A DNA stretch of 50,530 nt from assembly GCA_030835025.1 (NCBI GenBank), contig JAUQWS010000031.1, positions 1-50,530 of the forward strand. The letters run 5' to 3'. The translations under genes and the position numbers were made by a program. Shown here in pieces: positions 35,680 through 39,558 of this stretch (positions are counted from its first letter, which is position 1; each line of letters begins with the position of its first letter). The notes beneath the pieces were generated by a model that saw only the letters and a list, made by a program, of their open reading frames with translations, searched no databases and was not told where the DNA came from. The DNA comes from Ignavibacteria bacterium. Its GTDB lineage: Bacteria > Bacteroidota > Ignavibacteria > Tepidaquicellales > OLB5.

Positions 35680-36753
35680 ATGAGAAAGAATTATGTGTTG
35701 TTAAGTCAAAGCAGAAGGATACTGATAATATTGCCTGTTTTGCTTTTCCTTATATTTGCCTCAGGAACAATCTTTCAGGATAACACTCAAAAGATCAGGA
35801 CCGAAGTTCCGCAGGAGAAAGTAAAAGAAAGCGAAACAGATTCTCTTGGAGAAGAGCAGGACGGGTATGCTGATACTGTTAAGATAGGAGCATACATATT
35901 TTCAGTTTACGATCTTGATTTTCGCGGCAATAAAGTTAATGTTGATCTGTATTTATGGTACAATTCAACTAATGACAGTATTAACATGCTGGAGTATCTG
36001 GAACTTATCAATTCAAGCGGATATAACAAAACAGCAGAGACAAATGAAAGAAAGGACGGCTCTGTTTACCAGACCGTCAGAATTAACAGCACAATAAAAC
36101 AGCAGTGGAATGTAGACCGCTTTCCGTTTGATGAACAGAAGATTGAGATCCATATAGAGGATTACGATAAGGATAATTCAAAACTTGTGCTGATACCGGA
36201 TACACTTGCAAGCAAGATCGATAAGGAAGTCCGCTTAGAAGGATGGAAGATAAAAGATTTCGGCATAAAAACGGTTGACCACACGTATGAAACTAATTAC
36301 GGCAATCCCGAAATTCCCCTTGACGGTTATTCATCATACTCCCGTGCAATAGTTTATTTTACAATTGAGCGTGAGGGCAAAGGATTATTCTTCAAGCTTT
36401 TTATCGGGTTGTTTATTTCGGTTCTGATCTCGCTTCTCACATTCTTTGTGAATCCGCTTGATCTTGACCCGAGGTTCGGGCTTTCTGTCGGCGCTATTTT
36501 CGCGGCAATCGCGAGTCAGTATGTAATTACATCGACTCTGCCGCAGAATGAGAGCCTGACCCTTGTTGATATTCTGCACGATATTTCGTTCATTTATATA
36601 TTCATGTGTATTCTTGTTTCTACAATATCACTTCACCTTGTAAAAACCAACAGGGTGGATAAATCAAAAAAACTTGACAGGTACAGTTTCTTTATTTGTT
36701 CCGTAACATATATAATATTGATATTGATCTTTGTAATCAGAACAATTGACTAA
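35680..36753 (+). CDS. Pentameric ligand-gated ion channel (Cys-loop receptor) homologue
   Basis: A 357-residue protein from the ATG at 35680. Its layout is that of prokaryotic pLGICs: an N-terminal signal or anchor helix (about 14-29), a charged linker, and a beta-sandwich extracellular domain (about 65-232) opening 'IGAYIFSVYDLDFRGNKVNV'. The hallmark 'FPFDEQ' loop is at 148-153; the two receptor Cys positions are Gln and Ile, as expected for Cys-less bacterial members. Four helices follow: M1 (236-257), M2 (265-287), M3 (294-321) and M4 (335-354). M2 reads 'PRFGLSVGAIFAAIASQ' and ends in 'TSTLP', aligning with the glycine-receptor and GLIC pore helix. It should sit in the inner membrane as a ligand-gated channel. 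It lies between a flavin reductase and an amine oxidase. Confidence 0.87.
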   Translation: MRKNYVLLSQSRRILIILPVLLFLIFASGTIFQDNTQKIRTEVPQEKVKESETDSLGEEQDGYADTVKIGAYIFSVYDLDFRGNKVNVDLYLWYNSTNDSINMLEYLELINSSGYNKTAETNERKDGSVYQTVRINSTIKQQWNVDRFPFDEQKIEIHIEDYDKDNSKLVLIPDTLASKIDKEVRLEGWKIKDFGIKTVDHTYETNYGNPEIPLDGYSSYSRAIVYFTIEREGKGLFFKLFIGLFISVLISLLTFFVNPLDLDPRFGLSVGAIFAAIASQYVITSTLPQNESLTLVDILHDISFIYIFMCILVSTISLHLVKTNRVDKSKKLDRYSFFICSVTYIILILIFVIRTID

Positions 36754-36771: not shown

Positions 36772-38133
36772 ATGACAACACGCAGAGATTTCCTGAAACA
36801 ATCGGCAATAATTGCCGCCGGCACAGCGGTTATCCCTAATTCATTCAGTATTTTAGCCGGACAAAAACCGAAAGTAATAATAATCGGAGCGGGGTTCGCC
36901 GGACTGGCAGCAGCTTACAGGCTGAAGCAAAAGGGGATTGAGTATGTAATTCTGGAAGGAAGAAGCAGAACCGGGGGAAGAGTATTCAGTCATACAATTG
37001 ATAAGGACGAGAACCTGGTAATTGAACTTGGTGCAGAATGGGTCGGCGCTTCACACGAGAGATTAATAGCAATGTGCAAGGAGTTCGGGCTTGAGCTGCA
37101 GAACAACCAGTTCGAATCACACTTGACATATGCAGGGCAGTATTATTCTAAAGGCGGCTGGGATTATTCAACTGATTGGAAAGCTAAATTTGAGAAGATA
37201 ATCAAGGATTACGCTAATTTCAGGGAAGAAGATAAGAAGAAGCTTGATAGAATGGACTGGTGGCGGTATCTTGTTAACAACGGAATTCAGGAAAGGGACC
37301 TTCAAATAAGGGACCTTTTGGACAGCACCGATTTTGGAGAGAGTATCCGCCACGTTTCTGCATATGCAGCTCTGGCCGAATACGCTGAATCAAGCGAGAA
37401 GAATGAAATGGACTACAAGGTCAAAGGGGGGAACAGCCGATTTACAGAGGCACTGGTTGAAAGAATCGGTGCAGAGAACATAATGCTTAAGCACAAAGTA
37501 ACAGAAGTAAGTCAGACCGACGGGACTGTCACTGTAACCTGCGAAAACGGGAAAGTATTTTCAGCTGATAATCTTATCTGCACTGCTCCGACCTATGCGC
37601 TTTCAAAAATAACATGGAAGCCCGGGCTGCCTGAAGAAAAAATTGACGCTCTTAATGCGCTCCAGTATGCAAGGATAAGCAAACATGCAGTATTGTTTAC
37701 CGATAGATTCTGGAATGATGAAGCGTTTGATATGGTAACCGATGTTTACGGGCATTACTTCTACCATGCAACAAAGAACCAGCCCGGAACTAAGGGTGCG
37801 CTTATCTCTTATACAATTGGCGATAAGGCAGATATTATTGGCAGGCAGAACGATGAATTCAAGTCTGATATGATAACAGCTTCACTTAAGCCGGCATTCG
37901 GAGATATCCGCCCGAAGATTGTAAACCACCTCAATTATTACTGGGGGACTGATGAGTATTCAAAAGGCGGTTATGCGCTGTACGGAGTAGGGCAGTGGTA
38001 CACAATAATGCCCATCTTAAAAAAGAAATTCATGAGTACATTTTTTGCCGGGGAGCATCTTGCAGACTGGCAGGGATTCATGGAAGGAGCTATCAACACA
38101 GGAGAAGAAGCTGCCGATGAAATAGCGGGCTAA
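36772..38133 (+). CDS. Tat-exported flavin-containing amine oxidase family protein
   Basis: A 453-residue FAD enzyme. The N-terminus is a twin-arginine signal ('TTRRDFLKQS' then a hydrophobic run to about 30). The FAD-binding motif 'VIIIGAGFAGLAAAYRL' is at 35-51, followed by 'SRTGGRV' and 'ELGAEWVGA'. The C-terminal FAD block 'FFAGEHLADWQGFMEGAI' is characteristic of monoamine oxidase-like enzymes. It would oxidise an amine (or an amino acid) in the periplasm with H2O2 release, having been exported folded with FAD. It starts 18 bp after the channel gene in the same direction. The substrate is unknown. The stop codon shares CTAA with the convergent lipoprotein gene (38130-38133). Confidence 0.9.
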   Translation: MTTRRDFLKQSAIIAAGTAVIPNSFSILAGQKPKVIIIGAGFAGLAAAYRLKQKGIEYVILEGRSRTGGRVFSHTIDKDENLVIELGAEWVGASHERLIAMCKEFGLELQNNQFESHLTYAGQYYSKGGWDYSTDWKAKFEKIIKDYANFREEDKKKLDRMDWWRYLVNNGIQERDLQIRDLLDSTDFGESIRHVSAYAALAEYAESSEKNEMDYKVKGGNSRFTEALVERIGAENIMLKHKVTEVSQTDGTVTVTCENGKVFSADNLICTAPTYALSKITWKPGLPEEKIDALNALQYARISKHAVLFTDRFWNDEAFDMVTDVYGHYFYHATKNQPGTKGALISYTIGDKADIIGRQNDEFKSDMITASLKPAFGDIRPKIVNHLNYYWGTDEYSKGGYALYGVGQWYTIMPILKKKFMSTFFAGEHLADWQGFMEGAINTGEEAADEIAG

Positions 38134-39129: not shown

Positions 39130-39558
39130 ATGAAGGCAAAGTTTCTGATATTATGCACGGGCAATTCCTGCAGAAGCCAGATGGCTGAAGGGTTTTTACG
39201 GTCTATTGATCCCGGGATTGACGTATTTTCTGCCGGAACTAAACCTGCACGGAAAGTGAATCCATACGCTGTTAGGGTAATGGAAGAAATTGGTATCGAT
39301 ATATCCGGACAGGTACCGGAAAACGTGGATATATACACTGACAAAGAGTTCGACTATGTTATTACAGTATGTGATAATGCAAGGGAAATCTGTCCTGTGT
39401 TCACAGGCAAAGTAAGAAACAGGCTTCACATCGGGTTTGACGATCCGGCTGATGCCGTGGGAAGTGATGAAGAAATTCTGGCTGAATACAGAAGAATAAG
39501 AGATGAAATAAGGACCGAATTTGCCAAGCTATATGAAAATATCAGTAAGAGTCATTAG
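39130..39558 (+). CDS. arsC: Arsenate reductase, thioredoxin-coupled (LMW-phosphatase fold)
   Basis: A 142-residue ArsC. The phosphatase loop 'CTGNSCRS' places Cys9 and Arg15 in the active site. Cys81 and Cys88 ('VCDNAREICPVF') are the relay cysteines, with the same spacing as the S. aureus enzyme. The conserved 'FDDPADAVGSDEEILAEYRR' and 'RDEI' block follows. It would reduce arsenate to arsenite using thioredoxin. No arsR or arsenite efflux gene is adjacent, so it is a stand-alone copy. Its stop shares TTAG with the convergent kinase gene (39555-39558). Confidence 0.93.
   Translation: MKAKFLILCTGNSCRSQMAEGFLRSIDPGIDVFSAGTKPARKVNPYAVRVMEEIGIDISGQVPENVDIYTDKEFDYVITVCDNAREICPVFTGKVRNRLHIGFDDPADAVGSDEEILAEYRRIRDEIRTEFAKLYENISKSH

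Follow-up and report, generated by a model that had tools for sequence, protein, structure and literature searches.

An open reading frame of an Ignavibacteria bacterium encodes, as its sequence and predicted structure show, a bacterial relative of the neurotransmitter-receptor ion channels of animals (the pLGIC superfamily), and its sequence places the product in a divergent pLGIC group in which beta3 and loop A are missing and loop C has an extended motif. The gene lies at 35680..36753 (+ strand) of contig JAUQWS010000031.1 (assembly GCA_030835025.1), which we analyzed as a window of 50,530 nucleotides, and it specifies a protein of 357 amino acids from an ATG start.

Several searches connected this protein to the superfamily. 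PF02931 matched at 28.2 bits (cut-off 26; E 1.5e-6), and the transmembrane Pfam model, PF02932, gave no match up to E 10. Two NCBIfam models also matched, LIC (E 2.7e-12) and LGIC_1 (NF033918; E 5.8e-19), both far under their curated cut-offs; for LGIC_1 the score was 68.6 bits against a cut-off of 500, which the canonical pLGIC L051 likewise missed (116.3 bits). A phmmer search of the PDB returned 218 sequences up to E 10 (best E 5.8e-10), and the best 60 were all pLGICs or pLGIC chimeras. When we searched the PDB with a profile of 79 homologues (A2, which underlies all counts out of 79 below as well as the structural model), GLIC was recovered at E 2.8e-19 in a single alignment spanning both domains from beta1 to M4, and it was the closest solved relative among the best 60 matches. 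The AlphaFold2 model of a single chain (mean pLDDT 87.7, pTM 0.74) comprises a beta-sandwich, with strands between residues 65 and 231, and four helices. The 50 PDB matches listed by Foldseek for this model were GLIC entries (one of them a GLIC-GABA-A chimera), GABA-A rho1, RDL and glycine receptors, with probability 1.00 to GLIC, GABA-A rho1 and the glycine receptor, E values of 1.6e-19 to 3.3e-18 and TM-scores by target length of 0.69–0.81. The E values from Pfam, NCBIfam, phmmer, the profile search and Foldseek exclude a chance resemblance. Because the protein neither lacked a profile match nor adopted a different fold, the proposal of a pLGIC homologue in the initial annotation stands, with E values down to 1.6e-19 and with the beta-sandwich and four-helix fold obtained on a single chain.

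The protein begins with a hydrophobic helix (residues 4–32, 35689..35775, from model secondary structure and alignment), a putative signal peptide or membrane anchor, which is followed by a polar linker at about residues 33–63 (35776..35868; pLDDT <50 at 34–56); the length of the N terminus differs between relatives. The shortened extracellular beta-sandwich, delimited by profile, model and alignment, occupies residues 65–231 (35872..36372) and contains the Pro loop FPFDEQ at residues 148–153 (36121..36138), as originally described, together with the loop C motif Y-x-T-x-[FY]-G-[DN]-P at residues 203–210 (36286..36309) and the pre-M1 arginine, Arg231 (36370..36372). The identity to nicotinic receptors that had been claimed for this loop needs correcting, as nicotinic alpha1 reads FPFDQQ here and the superfamily as a whole has only F/YPxD in common. 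The predicted membrane helices, four in number as had been claimed, are M1 (residues 234–256, 36379..36447), the pore helix M2 (262–286, 36463..36537), M3 (295–322, 36562..36645) and, after an M3–M4 connection of three residues in the AlphaFold2 model, M4 (326–356, 36655..36747); all of these features are on the + strand. The only cysteines are Cys310 in M3 and Cys340 in M4, both in membrane helices, which agrees with the reported absence of bridging cysteines from the extracellular domain. The two cysteines flanking the Pro loop that define a Cys-loop receptor proper are thus missing, and by its sequence the channel is a Pro-loop receptor without them.

Conservation among the homologues followed what is expected of the superfamily. 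The available part of PMC4795631 gives F/YPxD as the superfamily-wide Pro-loop feature and lists in its Table 1 the seven most conserved positions, one of which, M1 14', is proline in 77% and glycine in 5% of sequences. All seven of these positions are accounted for in the channel protein, the M1 proline by way of the listed glycine substitution (Gly243). Residues F/Y148, P149, D151, W189 (the aromatic core residue of beta9) and R231 are each kept in 79/79 A2 proteins, as are Y203 and G208 of the loop C motif and D297 and H300 of M3, and the M2–M3 loop proline (P288) is kept in 78. At M1 14' we found glycine in 74, cysteine in 5 and proline in none. In known structures, the pre-M1 arginine and the Pro-loop aspartate form a salt bridge (PMC4795631, available part).

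The extracellular domain is where the protein departs from its canonical relatives. We aligned 31 proteins, of which 24 were non-canonical (short-domain) rows and seven were canonical, namely GLIC, GluCl, GABA-A alpha5, L051, L157, L160 and L161 (L numbers label the loci of relatives, and G numbers label genomes). Counting from the W93 column, the proline of the Pro loop is reached after 56 residues in the query, versus 72–82 in all seven canonical sequences, and the W-x-P of loop A, present in all seven, is absent from the query. In an HMM alignment to GLIC, the missing piece maps to beta3 and the tryptophan of W-x-P. The W93–P149 spacing is nearly constant among the A2 proteins (56 residues in 74, 57 in two, 58 in one and 60 in two), and in the wider group the shortening is graded, with 56–61 residues in 23 of 24 non-canonical rows and 68 in L050. 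A tryptophan at position 93 marks 24/24 non-canonical rows and 0/7 canonical ones, and the loop C motif T-x-[FY]-G (205–208) is found in 22 of the 24, the exceptions being L159 and L054. The position-by-position alignment to known channels that had been claimed holds for M2 and the M2–M3 loop, which match GLIC without a gap from -2' to 23' after a 2-residue indel. It does not hold for the extracellular domain, where 16–26 residues that the seven canonical sequences have after beta2 and ahead of the Pro loop are missing.

In an unrooted tree of the 31 proteins, one branch (support 99/98) parted the 24 short-domain rows from the seven canonical rows, which comprise GLIC, the animal receptors GluCl and GABA-A alpha5 and the ordinary bacterial forms L051, L157, L160 and L161. 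A second branch (98/95) set off 18 core-subfamily rows, with the Azospirillum and Streptomyces rows. The tree was built from columns filled in at least 30% of rows, a threshold that removed most of the loop-A segment, and it left out ELIC, DeCLIC and nicotinic sequences. Because it is unrooted and five of its rows (L054, L159, L050, GLIC and L181) have long branches, we claim nothing about ancestry. As for the value as an outgroup that had been suggested for this protein, the short-domain group would be an outgroup only if the root fell on its side of the 99/98 branch; it may be one to GLIC and the animal receptors.

Relatives of the query were found in several lineages. A phylum search gave matches in 27/395 genomes and a class profile search in 27/197, the query's own genome included in each. 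Among the matches listed for the class were all 10 same-genus genomes and the one other genome of the same family; the list of misses, which is ordered by kinship, starts at the same order and leaves 150 genomes without a match unlisted. A scan of genome contigs yielded 387 relatives; the 80 best came from Ignavibacteria, Chlorobi/Chlorobiota, Kapaibacterium and Bacteroidota groups. Plasmids also encode relatives: of 72,556 records searched, 10 matched, eight from Azospirillum (up to 37% identity) and two from Streptomyces (26%), and their features read "hypothetical protein" or were missing, in a collection whose feature tables are incomplete; L180, L181, L182, L183 and L184, relatives on plasmids of these two genera, are unannotated or hypothetical in their records. 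Several group members also miss the Pfam models, and for these two reasons the group is easily overlooked. A scan of IMG/VR for a virus origin gave 37 pattern stretches, none of which encodes a relative. Canonical pLGICs with a W-x-P loop A and the M1 proline occur in same-order or same-class genomes (L157, L158, L160, L161 and L051; L158 judged by eye), and canonical and short-domain pLGICs thus coexist within the same class.

Comparison with characterized channels sharpened these differences. GLIC, the proton-gated pLGIC of Gloeobacter, shares with the query the fold of both domains, the Pro loop, the pre-M1 arginine, the acidic -2' position and the lack of Cys-loop cysteines, but it has beta3 and the loop A W-x-P, and its Pro-loop proline follows the W93 column after 76 rather than 56 residues. 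In addition, GLIC has the M1 proline, T2', S6' and I9', whereas the query has G243, G2', G6', F9', Y16' and the extended loop C motif. ELIC (Erwinia/Dickeya), which is amine-gated, belongs to the same superfamily and has the same simple architecture of a ligand-binding domain and four transmembrane helices; ELIC entries were among the PDB matches of the canonical L051 but absent from the best 60 for either the query or the profile, and on the ELIC side the best 60 phmmer matches of the query included only the chimera 4yeu (Cys-loop ligand-gated/proton-gated channel). The PDB entry 6v4a, which we take to be DeCLIC, was also among the matches of L051 and not among the best 60 for the query (phmmer). 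DeCLIC is, like the query, a bacterial pLGIC, with a calcium site made of the acidic beta1–beta2 loop and loop F, but unlike the query it has extra N-terminal domains (PMC9897478, available part). Animal GABA-A and glycine receptors matched the query over both sandwich and helices in Foldseek and phmmer, and by our own count in the scheme of PMC4795631 (available part) the query has an aspartate at M3 26', as typical anionic channels do. Unlike them, it has no Cys-loop cysteines, no long M3–M4 loop and no loop A, and in the tree GluCl and GABA-A alpha5 fall on the side of GLIC and the canonical bacterial pLGICs rather than on that of the query. In the same phylum, pLGICs were reported in 2004 for Cytophaga hutchinsonii, and the ART-LGICs of that species and of alpha-proteobacteria resemble the query in being bacterial and partly of its phylum; some carry PBP-I or MCP-N/Cache domains in fusion, which also seems to hold for L159 and L054, and the bacterial matches are said there to span the full length of the animal ligand-binding domains (PMC549065, as far as its available text goes).

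The pore helix combines strict conservation with an unusual composition. The query reads D-2', R0', G2', G6', F9', A13' and Y16' (model and alignment), and among the A2 proteins we found D/E-2' in 76/79, G2' in 78/79, and R/K0', G6', F9', A/G13' and Y16' in 79/79; positions 0', 2', 3', 6', 9', 10' and 16' are each kept in 78 or 79. Glycine at both 2' and 6' makes this an unusual pore. The pattern does not extend to the whole group: L041, L044 and L046 have the M1 proline and L9'; among distant members of the core clade, the two Streptomyces proteins have the M1 proline, glycine at the M2–M3 proline position and arginine at 16'; and L180 of Azospirillum has threonine at M1 14' and phenylalanine at 16'. 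Three M2 sites (query residues 279, 280 and 284) covary: all 67 rows with N14'-K15' have D or E at 19', and the remaining 12 rows, exactly the query and L057–L067, combine S14'-Q15' with T, S or A there. The K15'/acid-19' pair, one helix turn apart, may have been lost together in the query's clade, and because the S14'/Q15' rows form one clade the change may be a single event.

From these features we infer that the protein probably assembles into a homopentameric pLGIC of the inner membrane that binds a periplasmic ligand at its subunit interfaces and has an M2 pore gated at F9'. One gene would supply one subunit (the pentamer follows from homology), the beta-sandwich would face the periplasm and five M2 helices would line the pore. 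A small periplasmic ligand would bind at the interfaces, in a way that dispenses with the absent loop A, and the candidate site comprises loop C (Y203-x-T-x-x-G-N/D), the loop B acids E160 and D165 and the loop D aromatic Y/W91; we take these loop names from the alignment to GLIC and from the nicotinic receptors. Within A2, conservation at the candidate site is high (T/S205, D/E165 and W/Y91 in 79/79, as for Y203 and G208, and E160 in 78/79). Placing the ligand there is nonetheless an evenly balanced call, and the invariant residues of the shortened domain could instead be structural. The signal would pass through D151 of the Pro loop, pre-M1 R231, the beta1–beta2 loop and P288 of the M2–M3 loop to M2, where the F9' ring, by its conservation, is the likely gate and the acidic -2' ring is likely to set selectivity, with cations the most likely ions. 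GLIC provides the precedent for a gate at 9' and for -2' acids as a selectivity ring. We lean slightly toward cation selectivity on the strength of the acidic ring; motifs such as acidic -2' do not settle selectivity in prokaryotes (PMC4795631, available part).

Alternatively, the channel could be regulated by protons or divalent cations, as GLIC and DeCLIC are, with no organic agonist at all and with D297/H300, D78, D174 and D181 sensing pH or calcium, a reading that we regard as possible though unlikely. It draws on the conservation of D78 in the beta1–beta2 region, D297 and H300 (each 79/79) and of the loop F residues D174 (78/79) and D181 (71/79), on GLIC coming out as the nearest solved structure within the best 60 profile matches, and on the calcium site of DeCLIC, which likewise consists of acids of the beta1–beta2 loop and loop F (PMC9897478, available part). 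However, the conserved acids could be structural, and the conservation of loop C suggests an additional site.

The neighbors of the gene may hint at a more specific class of ligand. Upstream, an NADPH-dependent FMN reductase (PF03358; 35097..35675, + strand) ends 4 bp before the channel start, and downstream, a flavin amine oxidase-family protein (PF01593, 215 bits; 36772..38133, + strand) begins 18 bp past the channel stop. The channel–oxidase pair is kept on the same strand in all 11 close relatives (L057–L067), with 6–25 bp from stop to ATG, and also in 11/11 loci of the query's family, a second sample, which contains the window and shares members with the first. In each of the 9 close relatives (of 11) whose contig reaches that far, the FMN reductase is found upstream of the channel. 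The oxidase begins MTTRRDFLK, and its 11 counterparts, read by eye, share an N-terminal M-T/S-T/S-R-R-D/E, a twin-arginine (Tat) export motif. Among solved structures, 7eme is closest to the oxidase, followed by MAO-A/B and others, and putrescine oxidase is also related; in the alignment a lysine of the window oxidase pairs with a lysine of MAO-A that has a catalytic role.

These observations raise the idea of an amine-gated channel whose periplasmic ligand is destroyed (or made) by the neighboring Tat-type oxidase, in the manner of a receptor and monoamine oxidase. Besides the constant adjacency and the kinship of the oxidase, it could appeal to the conserved loop B acids and loop D aromatic, to the activation of ELIC by primary amines (PMC3119659, available part) and to a hypothesis tying ELIC to amino-acid degradation (PMC4795631, available part). 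We nevertheless consider it improbable. The wider block is syntenic in close relatives, including oppositely oriented genes, so adjacency is weak evidence, and PF01593 spans other reactions too. At the thresholds used, and with flanks of about 1.5 kb or longer as contigs allowed, no such oxidase lay beside a pLGIC outside the query's family. In the sister family, 9/29 genomes have oxidase homologues, none beside a channel of the query's kind; the genomes with a full-length channel relative (G459, G474, G481 and G498) have no oxidase at E <= 1e-60, whereas four with a canonical pLGIC (G433, G448, G468 and G479) do have one, on another contig. Finally, in one MAG (G489:C16:15209-16384, locus L064) the oxidase frame is broken into two ORFs by stops inside the match and the channel frame is open. 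The pairing is therefore a lead and not evidence of joint function. Nor did neighbor clustering over 27 wide and 80 named loci reveal a phylum-wide operon partner, as no gene was kept beside the channel across families; two clusters of the named-loci set (c1 and c2), adjacent to the channel in part of the Bacteroidia loci, were rejected as partners, being divergently oriented and resembling ordinary synteny. A low-molecular-weight phosphatase-type protein (PF01451, 72 bits; window 39130-39558) is also syntenic with the channel in close relatives.

The pore bears on whether the protein conducts at all. With glycine at 2' and 6' and without loop A, the protein is unusual enough to raise the thought of a non-conducting membrane sensor or scaffold that has retained the pLGIC fold, but the preservation of M2 positions 0' to 16' described above fits selection on a pore, and we think this reading a poor prospect. 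Less promising still is a receptor that serves chemotaxis toward small solutes, the role that Tasneem et al. 2004 proposed for bacterial members because some are fused to PBP and Cache domains or share operons with them (PMC549065, available part), and one brought to mind by the seemingly PBP-like and dCache-like N termini (below Pfam cut-off) of the distant relatives L159 and L054: the query's own genome (95% complete) yielded no MCP signaling domain and no flagellin, where the same searches of 14 control genomes found MCP in 7 and flagellin in 4, which weakens the published idea for this host.

The channel of periplasmic ligands that we favor sits within a group of which parts were already on record. 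Bacteroidetes pLGICs, PBP-I and Cache fusions and bacterial members without the cysteines had been described (PMC549065, available part), and the 193 eubacterial sequences of PMC4795631, on its available text, may include members of the loop-A-less branch. According to that same part of PMC4795631, as of 2016 a biological role was known for no pLGIC of unicellular organisms. In the literature that we covered, which takes in few subscription journals, we found no description of the loop-A-less branch or of the oxidase pairing. A branch that has kept the coupling residues and the pore but has no loop A offers a test of what the classical ligand site can do without, and an amine-oxidase-family neighbor that is constant in one bacterial family gives a concrete ligand class to try first. 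The most far-reaching reading would be a large, mostly unnamed pLGIC branch (found in Bacteroidota and on plasmids of Azospirillum and Streptomyces) with a reduced, loop-A-less site built around loop C Y-x-T-x-[FY]-G, which in the query's Ignavibacteria family is gated by an amine that the adjacent periplasmic monoamine-oxidase-like enzyme clears; taken as a whole this is a long shot, and if true it would constitute a bacterial pair of receptor and clearance enzyme.

Copy number and domain composition varied among the relatives. The query's own genome has a single match to the channel protein and a single match to PF02931, and we rejected a second copy as a heteromer partner on the basis of that single match. 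Of the 10 same-genus genomes drawn (own included), seven have a second channel match, one of them merely an 81-aa piece. In one Bacteroidetes MAG, the channel ORF is in two pieces (L098:5929-6873), owing to a frame or assembly break. L159:1207-3459 (minus strand), from a same-class genome, encodes 751 aa with an N-terminal PBP-like stretch (PF13458, 20.1 bits, below cut-off) ahead of a short-domain pLGIC module, and in L054:5879-8053 (minus strand), which encodes 724 aa, a short-domain pLGIC-like module is preceded by a stretch that matches dCache_1 weakly (20.3 bits, below cut-off).
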